A stretch of DNA of 64,000 bases from Hamadaea sp. GTDB taxonomy: Bacteria; Actinomycetota; Actinomycetes; Mycobacteriales; Micromonosporaceae. Below, one piece after another: positions 14,051 to 16,057 of the stretch (its first letter is position 1; the number at the start of each line of letters is the position of its first letter). A model generated the notes under the pieces. That model searched no databases, was not told the DNA's origin, and saw only the letters and a list, made by a program, of their open reading frames with translations. The translations under genes and the position numbers were made by a program. Location of the stretch: assembly GCF_013362815.1 (NCBI RefSeq), contig NZ_JABFVK010000097.1:1-64000 (forward strand), given 5' to 3'.

Positions 14051-14103
14051 GTCAGGCTGTCAGGAAAAGTCAGGCGATCGGGATAGTCAGGCCGTCCGGA
14101 AAA
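14051..14103. promoter_or_regulatory. direct repeats upstream of the rtcB-prfH operon
   Basis: GTCAGGCTGTCAGGAAAA (14051-14068) and GTCAGGCCGTCCGGAAAA (14086-14103) agree at 16 of 18 positions and begin 35 bp apart; a further GTCAGG lies between them. They sit ~100 nt before the operon start and may be regulator sites. No regulator gene is adjacent. Confidence 0.4.
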
Positions 14104-14206
14104 TCGGTTGGCCAGATCCCCGGCTTCGGCGATCCTCGTGGCATGACGTACTGACGCGCACCTCCGGTTCCGAGTCCGTTCTTCCTCCCGAAGCGAGCGT
14201 CTTCTT

Positions 14207-15394
14207 TTGTCTCAGCCCTTCGCGGCCGTCACCGAATCCGGTACGGCCACTGTCACCGTGTTCGCCGCGCCCACCAGCTGGATCGAGTCCGACGCCGTCG
14301 CGCAGTGCCATCAGGTCGCGGCGTTGCCGGGCATGATCCACGTCGCCGGGATGCCCGACCTCCACCCCGGCAAGGGCGCCCCGATCGGCGCGGCCATGTC
14401 GTCGTCCGTGCTCTATCCGCTACTCGTCGGCTCCGACATCGGTTGCGGGATCGCCGTCTTCCCGATCCGGCTCAAGCGCGTCGTGCCCGAGAAGCTCGCG
14501 GCCCGGTTCCCCGACCTCGACGTGCCGCTGCATCCGGCGGTGGACGCCGACGACCCCGCCTGGTCGGTGCTCGACGGCGAGATCATGGCGAACATCCCGG
14601 CCGGTCACCTCGACAGCCTGGCCACCGTCGGCCGAGGCAACCACTTCGTCGAACTCGCCCGGGTCGGCCCGATCCTGGCGGCCGCCCACGCCGAGCGCAT
14701 TGAGCTCGCCGAAGGCGACCTCGTCCTCATCGTCCACAGTGGCTCCCGGGGATTCGGCGAGCGGATTCTTCGTGAGCACACCGAGGTCCACGGCGCGGGT
14801 CCGGCCGCCGATCCAACGGCGTACCTGGCCGCCCATGATGACGCCGTCCGGTGGGGTTCGCTCAACCGGCGGCTGATGGCAGCCCGGGTCGCGTACGCGT
14901 TGGGAGCCGAACCGGCCGACCCGATCGTCGACGAATGCCACAACCTCGTCGAAGTACGCGACGGCGGTTACCTGCACCGCAAGGGAGCCGCCCGCGGCGA
15001 CGGTCGCGACGTGCTGATCGCCGGCACCCGCGGTACGCCGTCCTACCTGGTGGCGGCGCATGCCGGGGCGGAGGCGAACTACTCCGTGGCGCACGGGGCC
15101 GGACGTAAGATGTCGCGCGCCGACGCGCTGCGGCGCGGTCGCGCCAAGCACACCGTCGAGGAGTTGCGGCGTACGCCGGTCGGCTCGGTGGTGGTCTGCG
15201 GCGACCGGCAGCTGCTGTTCGAGGAGGCGCCGACGGCGTACAAGCGGATCGAGCAGGTGATCGGCGACCTCGTCGGGCATGACCTCGCGACGCCGATCGC
15301 CACGACGATTCCCCTCGTCACCTACAAGACCGCCGAGGCGGGCGCCGCTGACGGGGATGCCCGACGCGACCGGCGGAAGCGGGGCCGGCGGTGA
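14207..15394 (+). CDS. RtcB-family RNA ligase, PrfH-associated type
   Basis: A 395-residue RtcB: LPGMIHVAGMPDLHPGKG, PLLVGSDIGCG with the metal-binding Cys80, GRGNHFVEL, VHSGSRGFGE and AHGAGRKMSR with the guanylylated histidine at residue 296. It joins 3'-phosphate (or 2',3'-cyclic) and 5'-OH RNA ends using GTP and Mn2+. It is somewhat shorter than housekeeping RtcB and, like the RtcB copies paired with PrfH, is followed by a GTGA-overlapping release-factor-like gene. TTG 14207 is the only start that keeps the N-terminal strand; its ribosome site is weak. The C-terminal tail is basic (DARRDRRKRGRR). Confidence 0.9.
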   Translation: MSQPFAAVTESGTATVTVFAAPTSWIESDAVAQCHQVAALPGMIHVAGMPDLHPGKGAPIGAAMSSSVLYPLLVGSDIGCGIAVFPIRLKRVVPEKLAARFPDLDVPLHPAVDADDPAWSVLDGEIMANIPAGHLDSLATVGRGNHFVELARVGPILAAAHAERIELAEGDLVLIVHSGSRGFGERILREHTEVHGAGPAADPTAYLAAHDDAVRWGSLNRRLMAARVAYALGAEPADPIVDECHNLVEVRDGGYLHRKGAARGDGRDVLIAGTRGTPSYLVAAHAGAEANYSVAHGAGRKMSRADALRRGRAKHTVEELRRTPVGSVVVCGDRQLLFEEAPTAYKRIEQVIGDLVGHDLATPIATTIPLVTYKTAEAGAADGDARRDRRKRGRR

Positions 15395-16005
15395 GCGTAC
15401 ACCTGCTGTTGTCGGCTGGACGTGGCCCGCAGGAATGTGCGTGGGCTGTAGCGATGCTGGCCCGCCGGCTCGAAGCCGACGCCGGGCGACGCGGGGTGAC
15501 CGCTCGCCGGATCGAGACCGTGCGCGGCGAGCGGCCGGGCACGCTGCTGTCGGTGCTGGTCGCGCTCGACGGCGAGGACACCGGAGCCGTGGCGGCGTTC
15601 GCAGCGAGCTGGACGGGAACGCTGTGCTGGCAAGCGCCGAGTCCTTATCGGACGGTGGGCCGGAAGAACTGGTACGTCACCGCCCAGCCGTGCCAGGTCG
15701 ACGCCGAGCGGATCGGATTCGACGAGTCCGAGGTGGACGTCGTCGCGTGCCGCACCGGCGGACCGGGCGGCCAGCACCGCAACAAGGCCAGCACGGCGGT
15801 ACGGGCGACGCACCGGCCGACCGGCACGGTCGTCGTGGTGGACACCGAACGGCACTTCGCACTGAACCGCCGCATCGCGATGCAGCTGCTTCGCAGCCGG
15901 ATCGCCGAGCGGGACGAGGCGGCCGGGCGTGAGCTCGTCGCCGGTCGATGGCGAATCCACGACGAGCTGATCCGGGGCAATCCGACGCGGGTCGAGCGCC
16001 CCTGA
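15391..16005 (+). CDS. prfH: peptide chain release factor H-like protein
   Basis: A 204-residue protein with the class I release-factor catalytic loop TGGPGGQHRNKAST (GGQ at residues 126-128) but without the codon-recognition domain, which is the PrfH layout. The N-terminal VHLLLSAGRGPQECAWAV opening is also typical. PrfH releases peptides from ribosomes whose 16S rRNA decoding centre has been cut, after which the partner RtcB can reseal the rRNA. GTG 15391 overlaps the rtcB stop (GTGA), so the two proteins are coupled. A hairpin follows 15 nt after the stop. Confidence 0.9.
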   Translation: MSVHLLLSAGRGPQECAWAVAMLARRLEADAGRRGVTARRIETVRGERPGTLLSVLVALDGEDTGAVAAFAASWTGTLCWQAPSPYRTVGRKNWYVTAQPCQVDAERIGFDESEVDVVACRTGGPGGQHRNKASTAVRATHRPTGTVVVVDTERHFALNRRIAMQLLRSRIAERDEAAGRELVAGRWRIHDELIRGNPTRVERP

Positions 16006-16019
16006 AGCTATCCACAGTG

Positions 16020-16057
16020 GGCTGGCGGCTTTGCGTCATTTCGTAAAGCCGCCAGCC
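16020..16057 (+). terminator. hairpin terminator after rtcB-prfH
   Basis: Perfect 13-bp arms, GGCTGGCGGCTTT (16020-16032) and AAAGCCGCCAGCC (16045-16057), around a 12-nt loop, 15 nt after the prfH stop. There is no U-tract, as is common in high-GC actinomycetes. Confidence 0.75.

Follow-up and report, generated by a model that had tools for sequence, protein, structure and literature searches.

The rtcB2-prfH pair found in a 64,000-nucleotide stretch of Hamadaea sp. DNA (hereafter the window) is best explained as a ribosome-damage repair operon turned on by translation stress, a reading to which we give a probability of roughly two in three. The identity of the two genes, their catalytic residues, the match of the upstream region to a known promoter type, the conservation of a three-codon mini-ORF and the presence of WhiB7 in the genome are all backed by the sequence. 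The operon and its upstream elements are described in Table 1.

Table 1. Features of the rtcB2-prfH region, in window coordinates.
Feature	Position	Strand	Remarks
WblC/WhiB7-type box GAAAAT	14099..14104	+	matches GAAAWY; 3 bp before -35; conserved
-35-like TTGGCC	14108..14113	+	TTGCCG in most relatives
-10-like GATCCT	14131..14136	+	17-bp spacer from -35
Mini-ORF ATG-ACG-TAC-TGA (Met-Thr-Tyr-stop), predicted leaderless	14143..14154	+	conserved upstream of rtcB2
Leader, mini-ORF to rtcB2	14155..14206	+	no significant fold, z +0.35
rtcB2, PrfH-associated RNA ligase	14207..15394	+	TTG start, 395 aa; profiles, tree, residues
prfH, peptide chain release factor H	15391..16005	+	GTG start, 204 aa; profiles, solved-chain alignment
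16-bp hairpin 3' of prfH, putative terminator without T tail	16020..16057	+	

Identity of the two genes

Two overlapping ORFs are present on the + strand exactly where the original prediction had placed them, and they share the GTGA at 15391-15394. The first product scores 304.5 bits against TIGR03073 (release_rtcB; curated cut-off 271.8) and 460.2 bits against NF007153 (curated cut-off 407). The second scores 181 bits against TIGR03072 (peptide chain release factor H; curated cut-off 166.65). A tree of 107 RtcB proteins separates the canonical enzymes from the rest by a branch with support 100. The window RtcB lies apart from them, in the PrfH-linked RtcB2 clade, where the proteobacterial RtcB2 proteins also group; its nearest row is that of the same-genus genome G061 (93%). 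With family cut-offs exceeded and RtcB in the PrfH-linked clade, the proposed identity of an RtcB-PrfH repair and rescue pair stands. Judged by sequence, the pair is an RtcB2-PrfH operon, the actinomycete copy of a known ribosome-repair system.

TTG 14207 is taken as the real rtcB2 start because relatives use TTG, GTG or ATG at the same position (91, 16 and 5 of 112 loci, respectively). Provided that translation begins there, the numbering of Cys80 and His296 given previously is exact. The metal-binding and guanylylated residues D77, C80, H146, H177 and H296 are all kept in the window RtcB2, and they show little or no variation across 91 actinobacterial and five proteobacterial RtcB2 proteins. 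Comparison with G061 gives a dN/dS of 0.11 for rtcB2 and 0.16 for prfH; both genes are under purifying selection.

The near-invariance of the ligase residues in the 91 actinobacterial proteins also bears on the idea that RtcB2 is an anti-repressor controlling drug efflux, as ArmZ acts on MexZ. In its favor, PA5471 is an RtcB-like ligase beside PA5470, induced through a leader and able to bind MexZ (PMC12057347), and RefSeq annotates the E. coli homologue with a reference to mexXY. Given the conserved catalytic residues and the lack of a conserved efflux gene near the operon, this role is hardly credible here.

PrfH carries the predicted GGQ motif and the hallmarks of the RFH family, namely GRGPQEC, where GP replaces GG, PSPYR, where S-x-Y is followed by R, and GGPGGQ; the rules for these motifs (GP for GG, S-x-Y-R, GGQ) have been described (PMC1586002). 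Residues 7-177 align with positions 122-291 of the RF2 profile, corresponding to RF2 domains 2-4. The nearest solved relatives are the PrfH chains 7sa4 (E = 1.6e-33) and 9mor, and these sequence matches settle the domain content. PrfH has no domain 1 but retains a diverged codon-recognition domain 2, so the description of a factor devoid of any codon-reading domain has to be abandoned. PrfH proteins in general lack domain 1 and keep domain 2 (PMC6514570, PMC9223846). Because every PrfH has such a diverged domain, its presence cannot refute the earlier reading of the pair.

The hairpin said to close the operon is present, with 16 pairs, but it lacks a T tail. A scan of the region for T-rich terminators found none, and Rfam and tRNA scans of the window gave no match.

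Distribution and genomic context

The search for RtcB-PrfH pairs in other genomes showed that rtcB2 adjoins prfH in all 43 actinobacterial prfH loci, as well as in 30 of the 30 first loci from the window's family. The 43 loci, obtained by scanning a genome collection, belong to Micromonospora, Actinoplanes, Nonomuraea, Planotetraspora, Plantactinospora, Asanoa, Dactylosporangium, Pseudonocardia and others; at three of them, the upstream rtcB2 appears disrupted, shortened or interrupted by the end of a contig. Within the family, prfH is found in 82 of 201 genomes (74 above the cut-off and 8 just below it), with a wide gap between PrfH scores and those of RF2. Among a 297-genome sample of the phylum, only the window's own genome passed the RtcB2 cut-off. 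At least 15 family genomes have RtcB2 without PrfH, and therefore the two steps are not always coupled. Solo rtcB2 genes (L080-L094, L208) have the same promoter and mini-ORF as the paired operon and no prfH. Some are intact and others contain stops or frameshifts, and L089 keeps a remnant of the prfH start.

A PF01139 search of the window's genome (assembly 97% complete) identified RtcB2 as the single RtcB gene, and no archease was found in this assembly. RtcB2 could thus also mend tRNA or mRNA as a general repair enzyme, and the persistence of solo RtcB2 genes without prfH, several of them intact, goes in the same direction. Nevertheless, many relatives hold a canonical RtcB besides RtcB2, and the translational overlap with prfH is conserved. 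In E. coli, RtcB2-PrfH guards against colicin E3 in vivo but gives no protection from colicins D and E5, which target tRNA, and canonical RtcB gave no E3 protection (PMC9223846). We therefore consider general RNA repair decidedly improbable.

The same E. coli specificity and the patchy presence of the pair described above favor the view expressed in the original prediction, a stand-alone operon without dedicated regulation that would defend the cell against competitors' decoding-centre ribotoxins. According to that view, the pair stands alone, with neither toxin nor regulator nearby. As to the toxin, no E3-type nuclease domain or cognate ribotoxin was found in the window's genome, and no neighbor is constant. 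As to the regulator, the view is incomplete: a conserved, stress-type promoter and a conserved mini-ORF stand ahead of the operon (described below). Further, few relatives have an E3-type nuclease domain (2 of 201 family genomes, both lacking a PrfH above the cut-off), and neighboring genes are not conserved beyond close clades. Defense against the rRNA-cutting toxins of competitors was only inferred, and as a full account of the operon it now appears unlikely.

A constant third gene was searched for at the operon and rejected, neighbors being common only to close Micromonospora. The neighborhood in G061 matches that of the window over about 8 kb with 84% identity. Another genome of the same genus, G039, has its RtcB2-PrfH pair at a different place, with an RtcB2 identity of only 76%, which suggests a separate gain or an exchange of the pair. 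In three Actinoplanes loci (L009:5602-6000, L012:5692-6000 and L039:5539-6000), about 310-460 bp replace the rtcB2/prfH overlap. Two short Arg-rich ORFs seem to lie in these inserts, one beginning at the rtcB2 stop and the other reading M/V-IGWW(K/N)RA...RIAPFRRW. Unrelated inserts of 315 and 790 bp separate rtcB2 and prfH in L015 and L018. The pair is also located on plasmids. It lies between qnrA6 and sul1 in the conjugative multidrug-resistance IncC plasmid NZ_CP086440.1 of Klebsiella (L124), and, in a Skermanella plasmid (L121), close to a polynucleotide kinase-phosphatase with an RNA-repair annotation.

A promoter of the WblC/WhiB7 type

The candidate promoter region 14099-14136 fits the published WblC/WhiB7 pattern, typical of genes that respond to ribosome-targeting antibiotics and composed of GAAAWY, 3 bp, TKGMNN, 16-19 bp and TANNNT, with the start 7-8 bp after the -10 element (PMC7157823). 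The order in the window is GAAAAT, CGG, TTGGCC, 17 bp, GATCCT, 6 bp and then the ATG at 14143. TTGGCC and GATCCT are each one base off the published consensus; in the strongest WblC promoters, T is less frequent at the first -10 base (PMC7157823). Nearly all aligned rtcB2 upstream regions share an A-rich box, three bases, a TTG-type -35 element and a -10 element with A second and T last. According to the published spacing rule, transcription is predicted to start at the A of 14143, 7 bp past the -10 element. Scanning for generic sigma-70 promoters returned no match in this region because the hexamers are too degenerate.

The window's genome encodes WhiB7 (L140), recognized by the signature described for this protein (PMC10727445), with an EPW-GVWGG motif (EPWGVWGG) and an RGRP AT-hook (RGRPRK). 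The strict WblC box occurs at 6 sites in this genome, versus 0 for the reversed pattern. Genes downstream of these sites encode an EF-Tu paralogue, a RIO-type kinase, a HelD-like helicase and an ABC exporter, names assigned by reading the translations; the other two are less clear. Among the WblC targets named for Streptomyces is an EF-Tu paralogue (PMC7157823). Two other WblC-type boxes of the genome are each followed 7 nt later by an ATG. One of these (L134, C76) opens MYIA-stop, and the other (L133, C72:90328) opens an ORF of about 28 codons ahead of the EF-Tu paralogue.

A three-codon ORF at the predicted transcription start

Since the ATG of the mini-ORF lies exactly at the predicted transcription start, the transcript would be leaderless. 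The mini-ORF is kept in 121 of 127 distinct actinobacterial rtcB2 upstream regions. It has three codons in 119 of them and four in L010; L090, whose intact mini-ORF was missed by automatic anchoring, is included in the count. As for the remaining six, the stop is lost in L159 and no mini-ORF is present in L038, L040, L044, L091 and L155. Codon 2 varies between ACG, ACT, AGG, ATG, TCG, AAT and GCG, and codon 3 between TAC, TTC, CTC, CAC, CGC, TTA and TTG. The stop is TGA, with TAA once (L007) and TAG once (L160).

When changes were mapped on the rtcB2 tree by parsimony, flanking bases changed about 20-50 times per site, which is near saturation. The bases of codons 2 and 3 changed 2 to 17 times and those of the stop 0-2 times, always into another stop; the zeros at the start codon arise by construction, as the set was pre-selected for an ATG and a stop at codon 4. 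This pattern fits selection on start and stop rather than on a fixed DNA word. An alternative is that ATGACGTWCTGA acts as a DNA site, or as a site in the initially transcribed region, and is not a translated ORF. Conservation indeed extends past the stop (CGG) and to the C before the ATG, and two TGACG repeats lie inside. However, it is codons 2 and 3 that change, TAA or TAG can take the place of the usual stop, and the sole insertion, that of L010, is of three bases and in frame. We thus regard the alternative as improbable, although conservation just past the stop leaves scope for a further function in DNA or RNA.

The combination of box, -10 element and mini-ORF occurs at 26 sites in 1.13 Mb (loci and window), all of them before rtcB2, versus 0 in the reversed control. 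A looser pattern of promoter and mini-ORF, searched in 101 whole genomes, gave 20 matches, 17 at rtcB2, with 0 in the reversed search; one solo RtcB2 was discovered in this way. A second copy of the 12-mer in the window's genome is located inside a response-regulator gene and was dismissed as chance. We found no description of a conserved three-codon ORF at WblC/WhiB7 start sites in the main texts of PMC7157823 and PMC10727445.

Between the mini-ORF and rtcB2, folding is weak across relatives (median z -1.15), and a conserved leader fold is not convincing given these z scores. Pairing between the mini-ORF and the rtcB2 start reaches -14.3 kcal/mol for true pairs versus -13.0 kcal/mol for swapped ones, a slight excess that relatedness alone could produce. 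With folding this weak and the excess this slight, an attenuator, be it an alternative terminator/antiterminator or masking of the ribosome-binding site, is no more than a possibility. The accessibility of the ribosome-binding region is slightly lower than in shuffles (0.40 vs 0.44). The leader is C-rich (40% C, 29% G), a composition that, speculatively, would suit Rho-dependent termination.

Proposed mechanism

By analogy with E. coli, PrfH would act on 70S ribosomes that a break in the 16S decoding centre has stalled, entering their A site and hydrolysing the peptidyl-tRNA. The subunits could then separate, and RtcB2 would re-seal the 2',3'-cyclic-phosphate/5'-OH break. It is on this analogy that we infer repair of cut 16S rRNA by the window pair.

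Upstream, WhiB7/WblC and the main sigma factor would start transcription at the GAAAWY-N3-(-35)-(-10) promoter. WhiB7 dependence and leaderless transcription of the operon are suggested by the promoter layout. The predicted 5' end of the transcript is the AUG of the three-codon ORF, on which ribosomes would load directly. Failing decoding or termination would then alter the occupancy of the mini-ORF and raise rtcB2-prfH expression, as PA5471.1 does for armZ. This sensing step is the least certain part; a three-codon ORF may be too short for sequence-specific stalling.

In its full form, the proposal is that actinobacterial RtcB2-PrfH belongs to the WhiB7 regulon, that the start-site ORF senses failing ribosomes and that damage thereby induces repair, with longer leaders in proteobacteria. 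We offer it tentatively, judging it somewhat more likely to need revision than to hold in every part. The regulatory sequence points to translation stress, for which antibiotics would be as plausible a trigger as ribotoxins.

Little is known about inducers of RtcB2-PrfH outside Pseudomonas, and the promoter and mini-ORF are kept across Micromonosporaceae, Streptosporangiaceae and Pseudonocardia. If the proposal is true, repair of cut rRNA would join the WhiB7 intrinsic-resistance response and would be inducible by ribosome-targeting antibiotics as well as by ribotoxins. As a regulatory reading frame, the mini-ORF would be about as short as is possible, and it would serve as a very small model for a leaderless ORF reporting on ribosome health.

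Comparison with known systems

The RtcB2-PrfH operon was originally described by Baranov et al. in 2006 (PMC1586002) and has been studied in E. coli ATCC 25922 (PMC9223846). There, PrfH frees the peptide from E3-cut ribosomes, the subunits split and RtcB2 re-seals the 16S rRNA (PMC9223846). The window operon shares with that of E. coli the gene order, the overlap, the protein families, the catalytic residues, GGQ, GP and S-x-Y-R, with identities to the E. coli M11 copy of about 41% for RtcB2 and about 38% for PrfH. It differs by its TTG start, its WblC-type promoter and its three-codon, predicted leaderless ORF, whereas in the E. coli copy the leader ORF spans 15 codons and has a strong ribosome-binding site. 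ORFs of 13-16 codons precede rtcB2 in E. coli, Proteus, Klebsiella, Shinella, Methylosinus, Tritonibacter and Rhizobium (loci in numerical order: L122, L123:2300-2347, L124, L125, L210, L211, L212), mostly with strong ribosome-binding sites. The leaders of E. coli, MTNPLSMTLCRPFQD, and Proteus, MTTTNMNTLCGQSQK, have sequence in common, and their ribosome-binding sites are nearly identical. No leader ORF was found upstream of rtcB2 in Skermanella and Novosphingobium.

Pseudomonas is not known to have WhiB7. The armZ (PA5471) and prfH (PA5470) genes of P. aeruginosa are the same pair. Their PA5471.1 leader stalls ribosomes and so allows armZ transcription in cells whose ribosomes are targeted by antibiotics (PMC12057347, PMC13041342). 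As in the window, an RtcB-like ligase and prfH lie behind a small leader ORF. In P. aeruginosa, ribosome-targeting antibiotics are the inducers (PMC12057347, PMC13041342). The P. aeruginosa system differs by a longer leader peptide and a terminator/antiterminator, and ArmZ also binds MexZ.

The WblC/WhiB7 regulon of Streptomyces and mycobacteria (PMC7157823, PMC10727445) has in common with the window's genome the promoter layout and the WhiB7 protein; the main texts of these two papers make no mention of rtcB. The uORF attenuator of whiB7/wblC (reviewed in PMC11550727) is likewise actinobacterial and senses translation stress, as proposed for the window ORF. It lies ahead of the regulator gene and works through a terminator, while the window ORF is only three codons long and shows no evident terminator. 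In the main texts of open-access papers, we found nothing that ties rtcB or prfH to WhiB7/WblC in a substantive way and no literature on a uORF of bacterial rtcB2. A leader ORF ahead of RtcB2-PrfH is thus a solution that recurs, and its actinobacterial form, with three codons, a predicted leaderless start and a WblC-type promoter, appears to be new.
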